DNA from: a virus
DNA: 26,132 nt
Virus record (IMG/VR): IMGVR_UViG_3300024320_000036
Span: 1 to 26,132 of that record
Reading direction: 5' to 3' (one strand)
This document shows positions 1 to 17,252 of this stretch, in pieces. Position numbers and translations under genes: made by a program. Each line of letters begins with the position of its first letter. Position 1 is the first letter of the stretch. The notes below the pieces were generated by a model. It was given only the letters and a program-made list of their open reading frames with translations, did not search any database and had not been told where the DNA came from.

Positions 1-6
1 CCCATA

Positions 7-77
7 TTAGTGTATGCTTACGTCTTGATTGTAGTAAGTCCGAAAGCGTTGTGCTATCGTCTTGTAAAAAATTGTTA
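7..77 (-). pseudogene. Displaced 3'-end remnant of the head-tail adaptor gene
   Basis: Read on the minus strand, this stretch encodes TIAQRFRTYYNQDVSIH and a stop, nearly the same as the C-terminus of the adaptor encoded at 702-1619 (SIAKRFRTYYNQDVSIH). Bases 1-36 are identical to 696-731, and farther upstream the two copies diverge in DNA while staying similar in protein. The remnant abuts the stop codon of the HNH endonuclease (78-617). It has no start of its own. The simplest reading is that the endonuclease insertion left, or brought with it, a second copy of the gene end. The left window edge cuts the repeat, so its full extent is unknown. Confidence 0.75.
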
Positions 78-617
78 TCATACCGCTTCCCTTTCAAGAA
101 CGTTCAGTCCTTCTATTGGCCATCCTCTTCTCAGGCGCTCGCAGTTATAATAATAAGCGGCATCGAGTTCAGTTTTTGCTCGACGAGACCATTGTTTTGC
201 GCCAGAAGAAATAGCCGCAACCCAAGGATACTCCGTGTGCGCTCTATCTTTTCTAAAGCATACGCCTTTATACTTTGAAGACTTTCCCGCAGACTTCTTT
301 CTGCTTGCGCGTGTGTTTCCCTTTTGGTCAGTTAACCTTAAATTGCAAAGCCTATTATCACTAGGATCGCCGTTAATGTGATCAACAATCTCCCCCCTTT
401 TAAGCTCTCTGCCTAGTTTCATTTGCATTATTACTCGATGGCAATACAATAACTTAGAGTTTAGTCCAACCATTCGGTATCCATGAGCATTAAGGGTGTT
501 GCCTACGCGACGACCCGCGGTTCGTTGCCGTGGCTTTCCTTCTAATTTCTTTCTGGTCAATATCCCGGTATCGGGATCATAATTGAAAGTTTTATTTAGT
601 TGTTCGATTAGTTCCAT
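78..617 (-). CDS. HNH homing endonuclease with AP2 DNA-binding domain
   Basis: A 179-residue protein. Residues 59-95 carry an HNH fold of the HNH_3 type: CHR at 59-61, the core VDHINGD at 78-84, and Asn88/Asn92 before LR. Residues 115-165 resemble an AP2 domain (SKYKGVCFRK, then YPWVAAI, then AAYYYN), a DNA-binding module common in phage-borne homing endonucleases. The N-terminal FNYDPDTGILTRKK is typical of the same family. It probably nicks or cuts a recognition site at the end of the adaptor gene in phages lacking the insertion, and spreads by repair of the break. It is free-standing: no intron core or intein motif is visible around it. Its flanks are a direct duplication of the adaptor 3' end (1-36 and 696-731), which supports recent insertion. 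Confidence 0.85.
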   Translation of the reverse strand: MELIEQLNKTFNYDPDTGILTRKKLEGKPRQRTAGRRVGNTLNAHGYRMVGLNSKLLYCHRVIMQMKLGRELKRGEIVDHINGDPSDNRLCNLRLTDQKGNTRASRKKSAGKSSKYKGVCFRKDRAHTEYPWVAAISSGAKQWSRRAKTELDAAYYYNCERLRRGWPIEGLNVLEREAV

Positions 618-701
618 GTCCTGTAGGCTATGCTAATTTTAATTTTATGTCAATAGCTGTCTCATAGACACGCCCTGATCTTCATGTGTCCAAAGCCCAT
701 A

Positions 702-1619
702 TTAGTGTATGCTTACGTCTTGATTGTAGTATGTGCGAAACCTTTTGGCAATGCTGGCGTAAATTCCTTGTCTGTTGATCTTGAGCAATGCTTGCTCCCT
801 CACACGCTCAACCTCGCTAATAGCAATTGGTTGGTAACTGTCACTTTGTCTTTGTGACTGCATAAAACTACGTGCTGCGCTATACGCCATAAACTCAAAC
901 CACTCGGCAGGGACATCTGATGTTGTGCCACTTGTGCCATCACCGTATGTAGTGTTGAAAGACTTCTTGAATGCCATATACACAATGTCCTGACTTGAGT
1001 CAGTTACACGTATGCCATTCTGATCTGGGTAGGCTGTTCCCATCGTTGGGTTAGCACCAGACCATTTCTTGCCGTTCCAGTGTCCAATGTATTCCCCTAT
1101 CTCTGATAGGGCTTGCACTCTTGGTGCTGGGTCTTCGCCGACAATCGCAGTCCATCCACTTAATGGTGGTGTTGTTGCGCTAGGGTTTGTAGTATTAATA
1201 TATACGGTGGTTTGACCAGACGTTACGTCAATTCCAGTAGATGAAATGTAAAAAACGTTAGTCCCAATCGTCCTGCTCCATAAGTTGTAAAGCTCAGTGG
1301 TTCCATCTGCATCGTAAAGCGTATAAGCTGGAAGTCCATTTGCACTAGAACCATTGCGAACATACAGCCCATTAACTTCACTTGTTCCAGCACCATACAC
1401 ATTAAAGCTATCTTCTGAATAGCTTACATAACCACGCTCTACTGTCCTTGGCTCTAAGACTAGAAACCGTTCCCACCAGGGATTCTCAAGATACAGTTGC
1501 CGAGCCGCTGAGTTAAGAAGGAAGCCAACCTGTGTTGCGTCATCACCAGATAAAGCACAACCACAGCGGGCTGCGGTTAAACCAGTTAGTTCAGTCCATG
1601 TGCGTGTGCCTTGTGCCAT
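702..1619 (-). CDS. Head-tail adaptor / tail tubular protein A-like
   Basis: A 305-residue protein downstream of the capsid gene. The N-terminal part (NSAARQLYLENPWWERFLVLEPRTV) and the C-terminal helices (EWFEFMAYSAARSFMQSQRQ, then INRQGIYASIAKRF) resemble connector proteins of the T7 gp11 / gatekeeper kind, which close the portal and attach the tail. A Gly/Ser/Thr-rich middle segment (about residues 70-150, with VNGLYVRNGSS, DADGTTELYNLW and IGTNVFYISSTG) looks like an inserted beta domain. The start follows directly after the small gene at 1621-1908, with one base between them. Its last codons recur beyond the HNH endonuclease at 7-77. The adaptor role is inferred from position and general sequence character. 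Confidence 0.6.
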   Translation of the reverse strand: MAQGTRTWTELTGLTAARCGCALSGDDATQVGFLLNSAARQLYLENPWWERFLVLEPRTVERGYVSYSEDSFNVYGAGTSEVNGLYVRNGSSANGLPAYTLYDADGTTELYNLWSRTIGTNVFYISSTGIDVTSGQTTVYINTTNPSATTPPLSGWTAIVGEDPAPRVQALSEIGEYIGHWNGKKWSGANPTMGTAYPDQNGIRVTDSSQDIVYMAFKKSFNTTYGDGTSGTTSDVPAEWFEFMAYSAARSFMQSQRQSDSYQPIAISEVERVREQALLKINRQGIYASIAKRFRTYYNQDVSIH

Positions 1620-1993: not shown

Positions 1994-2950
1994 TTAGGCT
2001 TCGTCAGAGAACTTGATCTTACCAAGACCATTGGGGCCTTGAGAGAGAGTAGTTCCGTATAGGTCACAAGCACCCTTGGAGCCTACGCCACGACCTTCAT
2101 ACTCCTCGGAGCCTTCACCATACAGTTCGCCCCACTCAAGATAGCGAGGATCGATTACGTAGCCACGGTCAACCGAAGGCATACATGCAGGGTTACCGTT
2201 GATGATCTTGACCGTTCCGAAGTCGGAGTCATACATTTCAACAGTGTAAGGAATGACAGCAGTGCCATTCATGTTGTAGTCGATTTGGCTAGCTGCACCA
2301 GCAGTGCGTGTGAACTGCTCAACGATGTGAGAGCGTAGTCCTGTGCCAGCAACCAAGTGTAGGTCGAGGAACTCACCACCTTGACCGAACATTGAAGCAA
2401 GAACTGCATTGAATGCAGCATCGTCAAAGTCAGCTTTAGTGCCACCATAAATAGAAGCGGCAGGTGTGCGGTAAGCAGCGGCGAAGTCAGTGTTAGCAGA
2501 ATCGGTGATGTCACCAAGACCAGCAGTTACACCAGCAGTTGCACCAGGAACGTCGGCAGTCTTGCCTTGGTCACCACAAACAACTGTTTCTTTGTCGCGC
2601 ATAAGCTCTTTAAGAGCCTTCTCGGAAGCACCAGCTTTGTCTGCAACAACAGCAGAGTTGTGGGCTTCTTGTTCTTTAGTTACTTGCCACTCACGAACGA
2701 GACGTTGTGCTTGACCTGTGTATTCACCAACAGCGGCGAACTTGTCAACACCAGTGTCTGTTGCAGTGCCTTCGATGTGACCAGTAGCCACAGGAGCTGC
2801 AAGAGAGTCCATCAATACGACGGGACGCTTGTTGCTGACTTGACGGGTAGGAAGCAATCCGCAAACGGGAGCTTGAGTTGCAGCGATGACTGTAGCAAGT
2901 TGCTTGAGGTCTTCGCGATTACCAGTTACGTTTGTATCTGTATATGCCAT
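1994..2950 (-). CDS. Major capsid protein (DUF5309-like)
   Basis: A 318-residue protein following the scaffold gene. The N-terminal region (MAYTDTNVTGNREDLKQLATVIAA and onward), the segment EWQVTKEQEAHNSAVVADKAGA, and the C-terminal part with HIVEQFTRTAG, VIPYTVEMYDSDFGTVKIING and VIDPRYLEWGELYGEG resemble HK97-fold capsid proteins of the DUF5309 group. Family membership is from memory of sequence character. The position after portal and scaffold and the private terminator at 1926-1969 support the call. The leader has only a weak AAAGAAAG-type ribosome site. Long plus-strand open frames opposite this gene are shadows. Confidence 0.8.
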   Translation of the reverse strand: MAYTDTNVTGNREDLKQLATVIAATQAPVCGLLPTRQVSNKRPVVLMDSLAAPVATGHIEGTATDTGVDKFAAVGEYTGQAQRLVREWQVTKEQEAHNSAVVADKAGASEKALKELMRDKETVVCGDQGKTADVPGATAGVTAGLGDITDSANTDFAAAYRTPAASIYGGTKADFDDAAFNAVLASMFGQGGEFLDLHLVAGTGLRSHIVEQFTRTAGAASQIDYNMNGTAVIPYTVEMYDSDFGTVKIINGNPACMPSVDRGYVIDPRYLEWGELYGEGSEEYEGRGVGSKGACDLYGTTLSQGPNGLGKIKFSDEA

Positions 2951-4346: not shown

Positions 4347-6453
4347 TCATGCCTTGTGTTACTGTGCCACCCATCTGGGCGGGTTGCGCTCCAACCTTGC
4401 CGATCTCAGCGTTCTGTAGTTGCTGTAGTTGGAAGGTCAGTTGTTTCTCATACTCGGCAAGTAGGAATTGGAATTGTGGCTTAGACTGTAACTCCATAGC
4501 ACCCGTCTGTGACTGCTTGTAGTCTTGGACAATCTGAAGTCTAGCTTGACCTGCATTCTGTGGTGCGCCAACAGGTATGCCAGCAGCCATCTTAGCAATG
4601 TCGTTAGTTGTCTCATTGACAATCTTAGCAGAACCCTGCTCGGTTGGCATAAGAACTAGGTCGGCTAGTGTGGGATCAAGGGCAGATAGTGCCATATCCG
4701 TAATAGCCTCAGAGTTAACACGACCACCTTGGTCGTTTTGTAGGACTTGGTATAAACCTGCTAACATCTTCTCAACCTTTTCTGGGTCATCGTAAGTGGA
4801 GTTAAAGCTCACAGTAATGTCCATCTCGCCCTCGTCTTCCTTCTTGGTGAACTGGACTGGCTCTGGATTACCTGTGACACGTAGGAATAGTTCCTCTGGG
4901 CCATCTAGTTTCCATGTCTCGTAGGTCATCTTCAACACGTTCTGGACGTGCGATAGGTATTGACCGATGTTGTGCTGTTGTAGCTGGACACTTAGAGGGT
5001 CGTTAGGGTCTTGCCCTGCAATCTGATTAGCCTCATCTACTAGTAACTTCTCTAGGTTGAGGTTAGGTGCAAAGCTAGATGGTCGATCAATATACTCTGG
5101 CTTACGTCCTGTAGGCCCACTGATCACGGCACCAGGCCCCATACCAGAAGCATCTACACCTGCTGGTGCCCAGATAGTTGGGCTAATGCTCCAACCAGAC
5201 TCGTCCATGTAACTGTCACGTAGGGTCTTTTGGTTCTTCTGTGGCGCACGTAGTAGCTCTGGAAGTGTAATACCATCGTATAGTGTCTTACCTAGTGAGG
5301 TCTTGGTAATGACGACAGGGTAGTTCTTACGACCACTCAGTAGCACACGTTTGGCTACATTGGGTGTTCCTACTTGTTCTGTCATCTCTGGACACCACAC
5401 GGTTAGGTAGATGCCTTCAGCGTTGTCAGAGTCGTCTATGAGACGTTCAAATGTTAGGGCAACCTCGATTGTATCCCTAGCTCGCTCGTTAGTAATACGA
5501 GCAATACGACCAATGCGGCGGTAGCTCTGGACGCTGTTGGGGTTGTAGAACTTGCTTTGGTCAATACCACGATGGTTTTCAATGACGTAGTTAGCCCACT
5601 CCTCGTCCCAGCCTTCAGAGCTAACACGATTTAATAGTTCTTGCGCTGACATCAGCATCCGAATGTGGATACGTGGTGCGTCTTGGTAGTTTACCGTATA
5701 AGCAGGTAGGATAACGTCAGCATCTGGCATAAGCGTCCGAACGTCTGCCTCGGAGTTTTCCTTAACCGTGACAGGTATCTCTGCTACACCAGACTTACGC
5801 AGTTGTCGTAGAGCCTTCTTGACTCGTGCTTCGTTAAGTTCCCAACCTTCTACGCTATTGAAAAGCTCCATGGCTTCATCAACTCGGTCTTCGTCCATCC
5901 AAATCTCTGCTAGCTCCGGTAGGGTCTCAGCAATCTGGTCAATGTCAAATAGCTTGAGGTAGCTTTGCTTCTTAGCCCTCCAGCCGCAGTAGGTAACCAT
6001 CAGCCCCGTCTCGTCACCGTAGTAACCAGATAGCTCCATCTCTTGTTGAAAGTTAGGGATACCATTGTCTCGTAGCCAACGTAAGAACACAGATACCTCT
6101 GTTGAACGATCTACGTCAGAAGACTCACGTGGGTATGCCCGGATGGTGGACTTACGTAGGGCGTTGGTGCGTAGAGCATCGTTATTACGAATCTTCTGCT
6201 TTACCAAGAACACCTCAGTGTCACTTGCCCCTTCATGTGGGAATGCGCCCTCACCTTTCTTGAGGTCAGAGGACTTGCCTTCCCATGCGCAGTTAATGAC
6301 GTCTCGGTTCTTTTCGCATCGGTCTACGTATGCACGTAGGTCATCGACGTCGTCATTATACGTCTGCTTGAAATTGTCAAAATCGAAGTCCTCCGAGAAA
6401 TAGATTTCGGGTTCATCCGAACGGTCGGAGTATGATTGTGCCATTGTCGTCAT
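4339..6453 (-). CDS. Portal protein
   Basis: A 704-residue protein in the expected place between terminase and scaffold. Its length matches large portals of short-tailed phages of the P22 kind. Features include an acidic N-terminus, a central alpha/beta region (FLRWLRDNGIPNFQQEMELSG and onward, with YYGDETGLMVTYCGW), LLSGRKNYPVVI, and a C-terminal helical, Gln-rich end (FLLAEYEKQLTFQLQQLQ) typical of the portal barrel and wing. Twelve copies would form the DNA entry channel and dock terminase. It is followed by a coupled small gene and the scaffold. The identification rests on size, order and general sequence character. Confidence 0.8.
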   Translation of the reverse strand: MTTMAQSYSDRSDEPEIYFSEDFDFDNFKQTYNDDVDDLRAYVDRCEKNRDVINCAWEGKSSDLKKGEGAFPHEGASDTEVFLVKQKIRNNDALRTNALRKSTIRAYPRESSDVDRSTEVSVFLRWLRDNGIPNFQQEMELSGYYGDETGLMVTYCGWRAKKQSYLKLFDIDQIAETLPELAEIWMDEDRVDEAMELFNSVEGWELNEARVKKALRQLRKSGVAEIPVTVKENSEADVRTLMPDADVILPAYTVNYQDAPRIHIRMLMSAQELLNRVSSEGWDEEWANYVIENHRGIDQSKFYNPNSVQSYRRIGRIARITNERARDTIEVALTFERLIDDSDNAEGIYLTVWCPEMTEQVGTPNVAKRVLLSGRKNYPVVITKTSLGKTLYDGITLPELLRAPQKNQKTLRDSYMDESGWSISPTIWAPAGVDASGMGPGAVISGPTGRKPEYIDRPSSFAPNLNLEKLLVDEANQIAGQDPNDPLSVQLQQHNIGQYLSHVQNVLKMTYETWKLDGPEELFLRVTGNPEPVQFTKKEDEGEMDITVSFNSTYDDPEKVEKMLAGLYQVLQNDQGGRVNSEAITDMALSALDPTLADLVLMPTEQGSAKIVNETTNDIAKMAAGIPVGAPQNAGQARLQIVQDYKQSQTGAMELQSKPQFQFLLAEYEKQLTFQLQQLQNAEIGKVGAQPAQMGGTVTQGMNE

Positions 6454-6462
6454 TGTATCATA

Positions 6463-6669
6463 TTACCTTGCGCTCAAGCTTTTTCTCATTTTAGATAAAA
6501 TGGGATAGATGTGATTGTCGTTCACACCTAGAGCATCGCACAACTGATTTGATGTCATTGGTTCTACTGATCCTGATAGTTCTTTCTTTACGCATTCGAT
6601 CTTAGACCAATATGCGGAATGCCTAGATACAAACCCAGAATTTACGTCTTCCTGTCGTGTATCGACCAT
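6463..6669 (-). CDS. Small winged helix-turn-helix protein
   Basis: A 68-residue protein whose second half (PMTSNQLCDALGVNDNHIYPILSKMRK) reads as a helix-turn-helix: helix, turn at GVND, recognition helix NHIYPILSKM. It probably binds DNA. It lies between the terminase and portal genes, two bases after another small protein with a helix-turn-helix-like N-terminus. It could regulate late transcription or act in packaging; nothing decides between these. Confidence 0.6.
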   Translation of the reverse strand: MVDTRQEDVNSGFVSRHSAYWSKIECVKKELSGSVEPMTSNQLCDALGVNDNHIYPILSKMRKSLSAR

Positions 6670-6671
6670 AT

Positions 6672-7046
6672 CTACTTAATCCACTTGTAAAAGAACTCTC
6701 CGTCCTCTGAACCACGCTCTGCCTTGTGGATGGTGCGAGGATTGTCCAGAACGGGCTTGCGATTCTTGGGCACCCCTACCCTCACCTTAACCTTTCTCTC
6801 CAAATCCTTGGCAAATATGAAGCGTGGATTAGCTGTTTTAAGTGGTAGCACTTGCACCTTTACAATGTCCACCGTAGCCGTCTCAATAGCCTCCATCTCT
6901 TTCTCGAAGAAAGCTAGTATCTTCTTGACCCCAGAGGGCAGGATGTCTTTGCCATCCATGTCGGACTCATTACACACTTCCTTACGCACACGTCCAATGT
7001 GCATTGCGGTCTTACCTAGTTGTTCTGCTAGTTCTTTTGGTTTCAT
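6672..7046 (-). CDS. Small HTH-like protein downstream of TerL
   Basis: A 124-residue protein. The N-terminus KPKELAEQLGKTAMHIGRVRKEV fits a helix-turn-helix that reads DNA. The rest is basic and beta-rich (DIVKVQVLPLKTANPRFIFAKDLERKVKVRVGVPK). It begins behind a strong AGGAGG ribosome site on the minus strand (around 7059-7064), unusual here and suggesting high expression. It starts three bases after the TerL stop. Function is unknown; a DNA-binding accessory or decoration role is possible. Confidence 0.6.
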   Translation of the reverse strand: MKPKELAEQLGKTAMHIGRVRKEVCNESDMDGKDILPSGVKKILAFFEKEMEAIETATVDIVKVQVLPLKTANPRFIFAKDLERKVKVRVGVPKNRKPVLDNPRTIHKAERGSEDGEFFYKWIK

Positions 7047-7049
7047 AAT

Positions 7050-8690
7050 TTAGTATCCTCCTGTAGTTCGTCTGATAACTCCTATAGATTGAGAGTCGTA
7101 GTGTTCTGGCCCTTCTCCATGGTTCGCCATACGCAAGTAACGGAGGGCATCGATAAAGTCCTTGAGTGGTTCGTCCTTCTTGCCTTGCGCCCCGTAGTTT
7201 AAGATGGAGTATATGAGGTTGCCACAGGACTCGTGTATCTGTATGATTGGTCTGTTGGCTGCGTCTATCTCGGCATTTGGGTTATACTTGAACCACTCGT
7301 CTAGTGCGGCTAGCCCCATGTTCTCGTTCCTACCATCTGACGGCACAAAGTGCATATCGTGGTCTGCAAACTGGTCAAATAGGTCAATGTTGTCGTCATT
7401 CTCACTAGCAAAGAAGCGGGAGTCTCCAATGCGCTCAAAGACACCAACATCTAGTTCTTCCTCTACTTCGTCAAATAACTCTACATACCCCCTTACGTCA
7501 TGCCCAATCTTCTTAGAAGCAGGGCCAAACTTCCACTTGGGATCACCAAACTCTGCCCAGCGTCCATGTGTCTGCTCATCAGGCCACTCTCGTAGCACAG
7601 TCACATAGCCATGTTGGTCTACTGCTGCCCATATGGACACATAGTTCCTTGCACCAGCGGGGTCAACCACCTGGTATATGGTGTGTGTCTCTGGGCTTAG
7701 GTCGGGTAGCTCTGAGCAAACGTGGACATTTGTGCTAAATAGCGGGAACAAGGTGGTCATTGACTTGACCGGGATGCCGTATGCACGGGTAAGTATCTGC
7801 TCCCTAGGGCTATGTTGTAGCTCTTTCCTAATGCGCTCATAGCCACCGAAGGGGTTCAAGGCACTATGGAAGTAGACAATACCAGCGTCCTTCTTGTGAT
7901 TGACTTGGACAAAGGGAACGTCCTCGTTGTTTAGTAGCTCTGCCTTTCTCGTCTGCAATGTCTCCGCATCTTTTAGGTATGAGGCTACGAAGGGTGTGTG
8001 ACCATCAATAGGGGTAAAGCTAATGAGCAACTTAGAGTTACGTGTAGCCAAACGGAAGCGCATGGTTTCGACCAAGTCTCCGTCCTCTAGGTATTCATCA
8101 AGCCACAGACCAAGGTTGTGCCACTTTGGTGTCTTACTCCCTAGTTCCAAGCCCTCAAACTTACCACGGTTGGCTATGAACTGAGAGTAAGTGTGGAAGT
8201 AAACGGTTGAGCCATTCGGTAGAATGAAGGATGCACCAGTAAACCCGTTCTTGTGGGTGAAGTTTAAATACTCCATCTCCGACTTCGACTTCTTCTTGAA
8301 CTCTGGAGGTAGATAGCGGAATACGGCTCGTTGTTGTATACGCACAGATGCATCAGCATCCTGAGCAAAGCACACAATCTCAGAGTTAGGGTTAGACAAC
8401 GCTGCTTTGACCACAGCCCTAGAGCTAAATTCTGTCTTTGAACTACGATTGCCACCATAGATCATAGTAGTTGAGTAGTTACCTAGGCTATGCTCTGCGT
8501 GTTCCCAAGGCTCTAGGGTAAACCCAGAGTTCAAGGGGTCTTCCTCTGATGCCTCAATACGCTTGTGATACTGCTTGTGCCATTGCTTTAGTAGCTCCTT
8601 GTCCGCTTGAGACCCATTCGCAAGTAGGAGTATCTCTTCGTCTGTAGGACGTTCGACGATGGGGTGGTTAGACCATTCTAGCTCAGCCAT
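7050..8690 (-). CDS. terL: Terminase large subunit
   Basis: A 546-residue packaging motor. The N-terminal ATPase has a Walker A variant GGNRSSKT at residues 79-86 and a Walker B LGLWLDEY at 193-200 with catalytic Glu199. The signature TRAYGIP lies near 301-307. The C-terminal RNase H-like nuclease starts at VVDPAGARN with Asp343; further acidic residues are Asp423 (IGDSRFFA) and Asp514 (FIDALRYLR). It would translocate DNA into the prohead through the portal and cut concatemers. TerS lies immediately upstream (three-base gap). The GG-R-SSKT Walker A is typical of terminases of many phages and prophages of the Terminase_6 kind. Confidence 0.95.
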   Translation of the reverse strand: MAELEWSNHPIVERPTDEEILLLANGSQADKELLKQWHKQYHKRIEASEEDPLNSGFTLEPWEHAEHSLGNYSTTMIYGGNRSSKTEFSSRAVVKAALSNPNSEIVCFAQDADASVRIQQRAVFRYLPPEFKKKSKSEMEYLNFTHKNGFTGASFILPNGSTVYFHTYSQFIANRGKFEGLELGSKTPKWHNLGLWLDEYLEDGDLVETMRFRLATRNSKLLISFTPIDGHTPFVASYLKDAETLQTRKAELLNNEDVPFVQVNHKKDAGIVYFHSALNPFGGYERIRKELQHSPREQILTRAYGIPVKSMTTLFPLFSTNVHVCSELPDLSPETHTIYQVVDPAGARNYVSIWAAVDQHGYVTVLREWPDEQTHGRWAEFGDPKWKFGPASKKIGHDVRGYVELFDEVEEELDVGVFERIGDSRFFASENDDNIDLFDQFADHDMHFVPSDGRNENMGLAALDEWFKYNPNAEIDAANRPIIQIHESCGNLIYSILNYGAQGKKDEPLKDFIDALRYLRMANHGEGPEHYDSQSIGVIRRTTGGY

Positions 8691-8693
8691 ATT

Positions 8694-9278
8694 TTAAATA
8701 TCCTTAGCTACCTCCGCATCAATGGCCGTAGCCCTCATTTGCTTCAACCGTTCTCTAGCTGCTGAAGCTGTGTCTTCGATGTCAGCGTCAGTGATAACCT
8801 TCTCTTCCCTGGTGATCTGAGAAGCCTCACCACGTGCCGTCATGCTTTGCCTATGACTTACCTCAAGAATCTTGTTCTTCGCTTGTAGAGCCTTAGAGAG
8901 GGCTTCAACGGCCTTCCAGTCTTCCTCTGCCTCTGCCCTAGCGATACGTTCCATCGTGTCACTTAGACCCTCTGAGGTGTCCATATAGATGCCACCACTA
9001 ATCTTACCCCCCTCTTCCTTCCAGTCACCAATGTGGTCGCACCAGTCTGACTTCAACCTATACACCGTGCTAGTAGCACAACCAGTAAGTTCTAGTATCT
9101 TCTTACCACTTGTCCCAACCGCCAGCAGCATTAAGACCTCTTGAGCCTTAGCGGGGTTACAGACGGTCAACGGGGGTCTACCACTACCACTAGGCTCCCA
9201 AGCCTTTACAAAGGCATTGACGGACTCAGAGATGGAGTTTGATAGGTTAGCTAAAGTTTGTTGGTTTTCTTCACTCAT
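8694..9278 (-). CDS. terS: Terminase small subunit candidate
   Basis: A 194-residue protein directly upstream of TerL. Residues about 45-80 (AKAQEVLMLLAVGTSGKKILELTGCATSTVYRLKSDW) form a clear helix-turn-helix, and the C-terminal half is helical and charged (RIARAEAEEDWKAVEALSKALQAKNKILE), suited to oligomerisation. TerS would recognise the packaging site and hand DNA to TerL. It overlaps the methyltransferase stop by four bases, indicating translational coupling. The call rests on neighbourhood and the helix-turn-helix. Confidence 0.75.
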   Translation of the reverse strand: MSEENQQTLANLSNSISESVNAFVKAWEPSGSGRPPLTVCNPAKAQEVLMLLAVGTSGKKILELTGCATSTVYRLKSDWCDHIGDWKEEGGKISGGIYMDTSEGLSDTMERIARAEAEEDWKAVEALSKALQAKNKILEVSHRQSMTARGEASQITREEKVITDADIEDTASAARERLKQMRATAIDAEVAKDI

Positions 9279-16541: not shown

Positions 16542-16928
16542 ATGAAAAAACTAAGTGAAACATATAAAGAACTAGAGATTGCATTTAGCTTTCCTATCAG
16601 GATTAAAGATGCCAATGGTAACTTGACTTACTTCGAGAACAGTGATGGCTTCTGGTGTAGGTATGAGCGTGATGCCGGCGGTTACGTGACTTACTTCGAG
16701 AACAGTGATGGCTTCTGGTGTAGGTATGAGCGTGATGCCGGCGGTTACGTGACTTACTTAGAGGACAGTAATGGCTTCTGGTGTAAGTATGAGTATGATG
16801 CCAAAGGTAACGAGACTTACTACGAGAACAGTGATGGCAAAAAGCAAGGAACTCCACGCTCAGCCAAGACCTGTGACGGTAAAGTCGTAGTAGTCGATGG
16901 AACTAAATACAAACTTCAAGCATTATGA
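16542..16928 (+). CDS. Tandem-repeat protein with YD-like repeats
   Basis: A 128-residue protein built from about 3.5 copies of a 21-residue unit (TYFENSDGFWCRYERDAGGY plus Val), resembling the Tyr/Asp/Gly-rich YD repeats of RHS-type and phage accessory proteins, which form beta-strand arrays. Units 1 and 2 are identical in DNA; unit 3 has diverged; unit 4 is partial. Each full unit holds one Cys and one Trp. A helical N-terminus (MKKLSETYKELEIAFSF) precedes and a short beta tail (GKVVVVDGTKYKLQAL) follows. There is no signal peptide. Function is unknown. Its stop overlaps the start of the next small gene (ATGA). Confidence 0.75.
   Translation: MKKLSETYKELEIAFSFPIRIKDANGNLTYFENSDGFWCRYERDAGGYVTYFENSDGFWCRYERDAGGYVTYLEDSNGFWCKYEYDAKGNETYYENSDGKKQGTPRSAKTCDGKVVVVDGTKYKLQAL
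16625..16836 (+). repeat. 63-bp tandem repeat inside the YD-like gene
   Basis: Units at 16625-16687 and 16688-16750 are identical over 63 bp; 16751-16813 is diverged and 16814-16836 partial. The period is a multiple of three, so copy number can change without frameshift. Confidence 0.95.
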
Positions 16929-17133: not shown

Positions 17134-17252
17134 GCCCCATTAGTTTAACGGGTAAAACACCAGCGCAAATCGATATAAGCCGACTAGTAGGCCACTAGTT
17201 GGGATCGATGAGCTTAATGTTGGAGATGCGGGTTCAAATCCCGTATGGGACT
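17134..17252 (+). tRNA. tRNA-like gene with a ~47-nt insertion in the anticodon loop
   Basis: Acceptor GCCCCAT (17134-17140) pairs with ATGGGAC (17245-17251; one C-A mismatch). The D arm is GTTT/AAAC with loop AACGGGTA; the T arm is GCGGG-TTCAAAT-CCCGT (17228-17244). Anticodon-stem halves CCAGC (17160-17164) and GTTGG (17219-17223) are separated by 54 nt instead of 7. The excess folds into ATCGAT/ATCGAT around a 9-bp stem CCGACTAGT-AGGCC-ACTAGTTGG. No simple excision restores U33, so identity is unclear; joining the shared GC would give anticodon UUA. CCA is not encoded. It may be a split or degenerate tRNA, or a tRNA mimic. Confidence 0.55.

Follow-up and report, generated by a model that had tools for sequence, protein, structure and literature searches.

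Background

C-terminal gene replacement by mobile open reading frames (ORFs) is described for mitochondrial genes of fungi, i.e., atp6, atp9, cox2 and nad3 in Glomus sp. and atp6 in Allomyces macrogynus (PMC3630166). The order of elements in these cases is gene core, foreign C-terminal end, endonuclease ORF and, downstream of it, the native C-terminal end, and the atp6 copies are 63.5% identical in DNA and 91% in protein. The phage locus described here resembles these elements. A core, an alternative end, an endonuclease gene and the native end follow each other in the window (the whole stretch of DNA analyzed, an entire virus record of 26,132 bases), in a second contig with the same locus (L002) and, at a different gene, in contig L118. 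As in fungi, the inserted end in the window is diverged and the native end matches close relatives. Unlike the fungal elements, which encode LAGLIDADG or GIY-YIG enzymes in mitochondria, the phage cases carry HNH_3 enzymes in tailed phages, their inserts are compact (695 and 540 bp in the two that were measured), and there are versions at 5' gene ends as well.

Free-standing HNH genes of phages, such as T4 mob, the I-HmuI-like genes of Skunavirus and those of mycobacteriophage Cluster J, encode the same kind of protein and likewise occupy precise sites that are filled or empty among close relatives. Phage T4 MobA is encoded in a split gene, and a separate element, the gene 60 bypass element, blocks self-cleavage. 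Protection in that case is by a translational bypass insert; at the window locus it would be by a recoded gene end. The known phage HNH genes are intergenic, or part of the target has been lost, whereas the window locus keeps both the old and the new gene end. In mycobacteriophage Omega, lysin A acquired a different 3' end together with an HNH gene, and 35 bp of the target were lost (PMC3706429). One-sided homing is described for T4 introns, with homology on one side and a microhomology junction on the other (PMC2988022). It is an experimental intron system and, unlike the window locus, has no gene-end rescue. In T4 itself, none of five endonuclease genes from the first 50 kb is flanked by a gene-end duplication. 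In the literature searched, which comprised few subscription papers and included PMC3653736, PMC11620839 and PMC12724721 besides the sources cited in this text, no duplicated gene end is described for a phage endonuclease, and the arrangement is claimed as new for phages on this basis. New within these sources are the phage setting, the HNH enzymes and the involvement of both gene ends; end replacement of the fungal type and one-sided homing in T4 are already known.

The interrupted gene and its insert

The window is probably a fragment of a tailed-phage genome with an SU10-like capsid gene and a terminase gene. At positions 17134–17252 (plus strand) there is an Rfam tRNA match of 45.3 bits, with 119 nt for 71 model positions (about 48 nt inserted); with ARAGORN the window gave no tRNA. 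Inside an ORF at positions 16542–16928 (plus strand), a stretch like GGYVTYFENSDGFWCRYERDA is repeated almost perfectly.

The interrupted gene is an ORF of 305 aa on the minus strand (positions 702–1619) and is the second gene after the SU10-like major capsid gene. It consists of a body (1619–759), which is common to relatives, and a replacement tail (758–702). The product has no Pfam, PHROG or PDB-profile match and its AlphaFold model, with a mean pLDDT of 51, is too poor for use; the name head-tail adaptor, given to it in an earlier note that was made from the letters of the sequence and presumed the gene to be essential, finds no backing there. The middle of the protein is hypervariable in sequence and length among the window and relatives L003–L006, and both ends are very similar.

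The insert is 695 bp (positions 64–758, minus strand), with limits set by relatives that have an empty site. It contains the replacement tail, a short remnant of the next gene, a spacer, the HNH gene and a terminal segment, AACAATTTTTTAC. The replacement tail (702–758, minus strand) reads ASIAKRFRTYYNQDVSIH followed by a stop codon and gives the upstream gene an alternative ending of 18 codons plus stop. The remnant (689–700, minus strand) is a copy of MGFG, the four codons with which the next gene opens; the next gene itself is seen in L002 to begin MGFGRYRFRRSFGQ, and in the window the remnant continues as a 12-codon ORF (700–662, minus strand). The HNH gene encodes 179 aa (78–617, minus strand). 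Beyond the insert is the old tail, KTIAQRFRTYYNQDVSIH with its stop codon, and the start of the next gene (1–63, minus strand). This segment runs past the window edge; the end of the record falls inside the repeat, and the left tail copy is truncated at base 1.

The earlier note had the left copy ending at the endonuclease stop codon. An ATG does overlap that stop: a 24-codon ORF, MITIFYKTIAQRFRTYYNQDVSIH (7–81, minus strand), starts within it in an ATGA overlap and ends at the next gene in TAAT-ATG. The boundary of the old tail itself is at position 63, behind the pentamer TTTAC at 64–68. This putative ORF with the ATGA overlap may keep translational coupling intact.

TTTAC precedes both junctions. 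At the right junction (759–763, minus strand) it represents the final bases of the native gene body, and at the left junction (64–68, minus strand) the final bases of the insert, where it is either a microhomology or a 5-bp target repeat. The insertion point is between TTTAC and AAGACG. It is set by the empty relatives, as body plus old tail correspond to their single tail.

Replacement tail and native tail

Bases 1–36 are repeated exactly at 696–731, as had been noted from the letters, and the similarity extends at 82% identity to 1–68 and 696–763. The two tails are alike in protein and diverged in DNA, and the divergence is unevenly placed. Compared with the old tail, the new one has 12 mismatches in its first 27 nt (758–732) and none in the next 36 nt, which include the remainder of the tail (731–702). 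Among the first nine codons there are three nonsynonymous changes, five synonymous changes and one unchanged codon. The next ten codons, stop included, are unchanged; these are followed by six further equal bases, one C/T difference and TTTGGA, after which similarity is lost. Under an even spread, the probability of finding at least 12 of the 13 differences in the first 27 of 70 nt is 1.6e-5.

The G+C content over the 27 nt is 0.519 in the new tail and 0.481 in the old tail. The whole insert has 0.426 compared with 0.460 for its gene, i.e., only slightly lower. Base composition thus gives no foreign mark to the recoded tail, in the window or in L118, the two cases that concern a 3' gene end. 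Searches for a donor of the tail gave none. An exact 18-mer from the recoded part is present, beyond the window, only in the L002 contig; the degenerate pattern IA[KQ]RFRTYY matched only the six known contigs; and a search with the A1 profile in viral and genome contigs found no donor, the genome contigs giving no relative whatever. The proposal of the earlier note that the tail is donor-derived fits the front of the tail. It is weakened by the 36 identical bases behind that front and by the failure of these searches. The identical stretch requires that a donor be a close relative or a mosaic, or that there was later conversion between the copies.

A second contig and uninterrupted relatives

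L002 (IMGVR_UViG_3300028008_000272) has the same locus and continues beyond the edge of the window. Its old tail ends with TAATATGGG and then enters the next gene. This next gene (L002 positions 6615–8936) encodes a protein of modular build in which the motifs AAAYSLR and WYDQSGNxNxA recur, and its downstream part varies strongly among relatives. The insert is identical in the two contigs (0 of 695 positions differ; L002 positions 5862–6556), while 98 of 5861 bases differ in the upstream flank. At the average flank rate, 11.6 differences would be expected in the insert. The nearest 700 bases to the insert are also rather similar, with 5 differences. The absence of differences in the insert fits a recent spread of the insert, short of proof.

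Five relatives (L003–L007) have an empty site. In each, the body, ending in GAATTTAC, passes without a break into the old tail, which reads AAGACGATAGC or is a slight variant of it, and the next gene follows. The alignment with endonuclease-free relatives that the earlier note had called for thus yields an intact gene made of body and old tail, and bears out its view that the endonuclease gene lies beside the old tail with a fresh tail restoring the gene. The old tail, as read in L002, differs from L003, L004, L005, L006 and L007 at 0, 2, 13, 3 and 1 of 64 nt, and the new tail differs from them at 13, 13, 21, 14 and 14 of 64 nt. It is the copy joined to the body that is unlike the native tails, and a simple duplication of the target site is rejected for this reason, in agreement with the earlier note. 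One copy of the tail motif is present per locus in all five, and no endonuclease match was found in their five parent records, which may be fragments. The same insert in a second contig with 98/5861 flank differences, and the single tail motif in the five relatives, exclude chance as an explanation of the two tails. The L007 relative of the gene (positions 5001–5889) has a frameshift in its first half, which is either a contig error or real.

The endonuclease

The protein encoded in the insert matches Pfam HNH_3 (PF13392) with an E value of 1.4e-12 and 47.5 bits (cut-off 24.8) and phrog_99 with an E value of 1.3e-36. The HNH residues are intact. In an alignment of 30 members, D79, H80, N82, N88 and N92 are invariant and H60 is nearly so; 29 of the 30 were picked by a DHIN..NLR pattern, and the conservation of those columns is partly due to the selection of the set. 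An AlphaFold2 model has a mean pLDDT of 83. Its best PDB match is I-HmuI (1u3e), with an E value of 2e-3, probability 1.0, TM score 0.43 and rmsd 16.6, and no match reaches E 0.001 or better. An AP2 domain is the second-ranked structure match (E 0.8). The earlier note had described an HNH/AP2 enzyme. The HNH part is supported by HNH_3; for AP2, Pfam gives no match in the window protein up to E 10, and the enzyme of L118 has an AP2 match of 1.3e-5, under the curated cut-off. The domain, the residues, the empty sites and the lack of an intron match together predict a free-standing HNH homing endonuclease of the HNH_3, I-HmuI-like kind.

Further cases in other phage genes

In L118 the terminase large-subunit gene ends in HREYV followed by ATAPKRGYTAGGIATSWMGA and a stop codon. 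An HNH gene, an old tail (VDRAPRRAYAPGGISNSWMGA with stop codon) and the next gene follow. The insert is 540 bp and TGTTG is present at both junctions. The old tail agrees at 60 of 60 bases with that of L164, a relative with an empty site. The new tail has 20 differences from the old one over 62 nt; they are confined to the first 44, and the last 18 are identical. A second tail within 1200 nt downstream of the terminase gene is absent in 78 of 79 relatives, 9 of which have less than 600 nt of downstream sequence; the exception, L161, is the L118 contig itself. The 79 come from 80 loci among at least 599, with L240 excluded as its match stops short of the tail. In L213 an HNH motif lies farther downstream of the terminase gene, away from the tail. 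The gene after the terminase varies among relatives of L118, which would favor homology repair on one side only. A comparison of the new tail with 26 native tails (of the 78) found no donor, and the nearest two differ at 20 of 66 positions. The G+C content is 0.456 in the insert against 0.634 in the surroundings, and 0.581 in the new tail against 0.613 in the old.

Two other contigs, L068 and L051, are mirror images of these 3' cases at the 5' end of a gene. In L068 a 5' end, MSRLFISLIALLLAWPAQAGTRVWLMYGE followed by a stop codon, is upstream of an HNH gene, and behind the HNH gene the interrupted gene restarts as MIKIVTIIFTLLTCTPVLAGTRVWLLYGW. The G+C content is 0.598 in the upstream end, 0.407 in the downstream end, 0.42 in the HNH gene and 0.55–0.56 in the surroundings. 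The downstream end probably came with the enzyme gene, the native end being assigned by base composition only. Searches of phages and genome contigs found no relative of this gene, nor an empty site for comparison.

In L051 an HNH frame (positions 2158–2664, minus strand) starts with an apparent native start of a terminase small subunit (VPVLKNPRHD). The gene, which has a Terminase_2 match, restarts behind the HNH frame as MGVLKNPRHEKFCQ. VLKNPRH is shared by both starts, and six of its seven codons differ between them. The end joined to the body has a G+C content of 0.424 compared with 0.586 for the orphan end. From this arrangement it looks like the enzyme gene has also taken over the native start codon of the terminase gene. 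No close empty relative was found; the terminase small-subunit relatives are too distant for an empty-site comparison.

Over 98–110 aligned positions, the enzymes of L118 and L068 agree with the window enzyme at only about one residue in three. With so few residues shared, the insertions in the window, L118 and L068 are probably independent events.

Survey of HNH sites

A DNA pattern for DHINxDxxDNRxxNLR found at least 120 viral stretches with 121 sites within them. Of the 121 sites listed, 109 had 300-nt flanks, and 107 were kept after removal of duplicates. The score was the translated similarity between upstream and downstream flanks, on the sense strand only and with low-entropy matches excluded. 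L118 scores 78 and L068 scores 70, and none of 4000 shuffled pairings reaches 60 or more. L051 scores 51 and was accepted on anatomy; 3 of the 4000 controls score at least 50. Gene-end replacement is thus seen at 3 of 107 other HNH-motif sites among the matches listed (2 of 107 by score alone): at the 3' end of a terminase large-subunit gene, the 5' end of a terminase small-subunit gene and the 5' end of a gene with no assigned name. A scan of the 121 distinct HNH-like sites among the loci listed gave no further accepted case. L081 reached a score of 50 through a G+C-rich similarity that is out of frame, and was rejected.

A first-pass survey covered 73 of 81 sites with 160 control pairs and a control maximum of 56, which the score of L110 equals. 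In that pass L094, L083, L086 and L081 scored above 56, but through low-complexity or repeat matches, and were discarded. Isolate phages contributed 28 endonuclease sites (10 in 8 records, 13 in 12 records and 5 in T4), with no accepted case and a best score of 40; several of these records are near relatives, L039 has almost no upstream sequence, and one site in L034 is of a different HNH kind. The survey covered HNH enzymes only, with one locus per target gene apart from the pair formed by the window and L002.

Alternative explanations

We consider one-sided homing the likely explanation, in which a free-standing HNH enzyme enters a coding sequence and supplies a substitute for the end of the gene that it severs. 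Its main rival has no foreign donor: the native tail would have been copied at insertion, and the copy would later have been recoded under selection for escape from cutting by the carrier's own enzyme. The ordinary composition of the recoded part in both 3' cases, where new and old tails are close in G+C, gives this explanation its standing. The position of the differences suits it too, as they are only cut-proximal and the rest is identical (12/27 then 0/36 in the window, 20/44 then 0/18 in L118), and so does the outcome of the donor searches for the recoded tails. The 12 to 20 changes, many of them synonymous, would seem far beyond the needs of escape. The body-joined ends of L068 and L051 are also A+T-richer than the orphan ends (G+C 0.407 versus 0.598 and 0.424 versus 0.586), as expected of DNA that arrived with an A+T-richer enzyme gene, although in L068 this point is partly circular, composition having also been used to assign the native end. 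On balance, recoding of a native copy is rather unlikely. The lower G+C of the L118 insert and of the L068 HNH gene relative to their surroundings was counted in favor of homing; the missing donor genome, the 36 identical nt after the diverged 27 nt, the ordinary composition of the recoded tail in the 3' cases, the single locus per gene (the L002 pair apart) and the outcome for isolate phages were counted against it.

The presence of two tail copies could also stem from an older partial duplication of the gene, with the endonuclease gene arriving later between the tails. The loci of all five uninterrupted relatives have a single tail motif, and none has both copies without the endonuclease gene, the finding that the earlier note had named as evidence for such a duplication. 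Nor is the left copy longer than a gene tail: it is the native tail, equals that of L003 over all 64 nt and leads on into the next gene. The insertion point coincides exactly with the place where the body ends and the old tail begins, as it does in L118 compared with L164. An older duplication is accordingly improbable. That the insert sits at one precise point, and that HNH genes are known in phage introns, e.g., in the spliced tape-measure gene of ICP1 (PMC10448857), would agree with a mobile intron, the whole insert being spliced from the RNA and the alternative tail being incidental. No group I or group II match at the gathering level is present in the window, L002, L118, L068 or L051, and none with an E value up to 10 (Rfam) around the L118 insert or the window-type insert as analyzed in L002. 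An intron would have no use for a homologous gene end that is in frame and brings a stop or start of its own, and we regard splicing as very improbable. The claim of the earlier note that the gene was entered without intron or intein agrees with these searches and with the interrupted gene being predicted to stop before the enzyme gene. An assembly chimera formed at the repeat is suggested by the start of the window record inside it; against this, the separate L002 contig, with its 98/5861 flank differences, crosses both junctions into unique sequence, and the same kind of anatomy is present at three other loci. A chimera is, of all these explanations, the least probable.

Proposed route of insertion and its significance

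One-sided homing is based on the exact insertion point, the new tail beside the old, the uninterrupted relatives, the junction repeat and the recurrence of the arrangement, including at 5' ends, all of which are observed. The cleavage site, the immunity given by a recoded tail and the order of events are inferred from sequence. In the donor, the enzyme gene would lie directly after the gene, and the front of the tail, as one half of the recognition site, would be recoded and so immune. During a mixed infection the enzyme would cut an uninterrupted allele at or near the boundary between TTTAC and AAGACG. The upstream broken end would then be repaired by homology into the donor gene body, and the recoded tail and enzyme gene would be copied. 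The downstream end would be joined illegitimately at the 5-nt microhomology, so that the old tail would stay in place and still lead into the next gene (TAAT-ATG). A diverged front with an identical back, as seen in both 3' cases, fits a donor that was close to the recipient except in the recognition half-site of the enzyme.

It is about an even chance that these loci represent a recurrent class of 'end-replacing' homing endonucleases in phages, i.e., compact HNH genes with no intron or intein, whose recoded 3' or 5' end restores the target gene and immunizes the carrier. Such a class would be a counterpart of synthetic home-and-rescue gene drives. The locus suggests how a coding sequence may be invaded by an endonuclease gene that has neither intron nor intein, with a working gene left in place. 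A by-product is the formation of new ends for phage genes, and this gives mosaicism within genes a concrete source. Should the recoded end confer immunity, the insert would be a natural version of the rescue cassette that is added by hand in gene-drive design.
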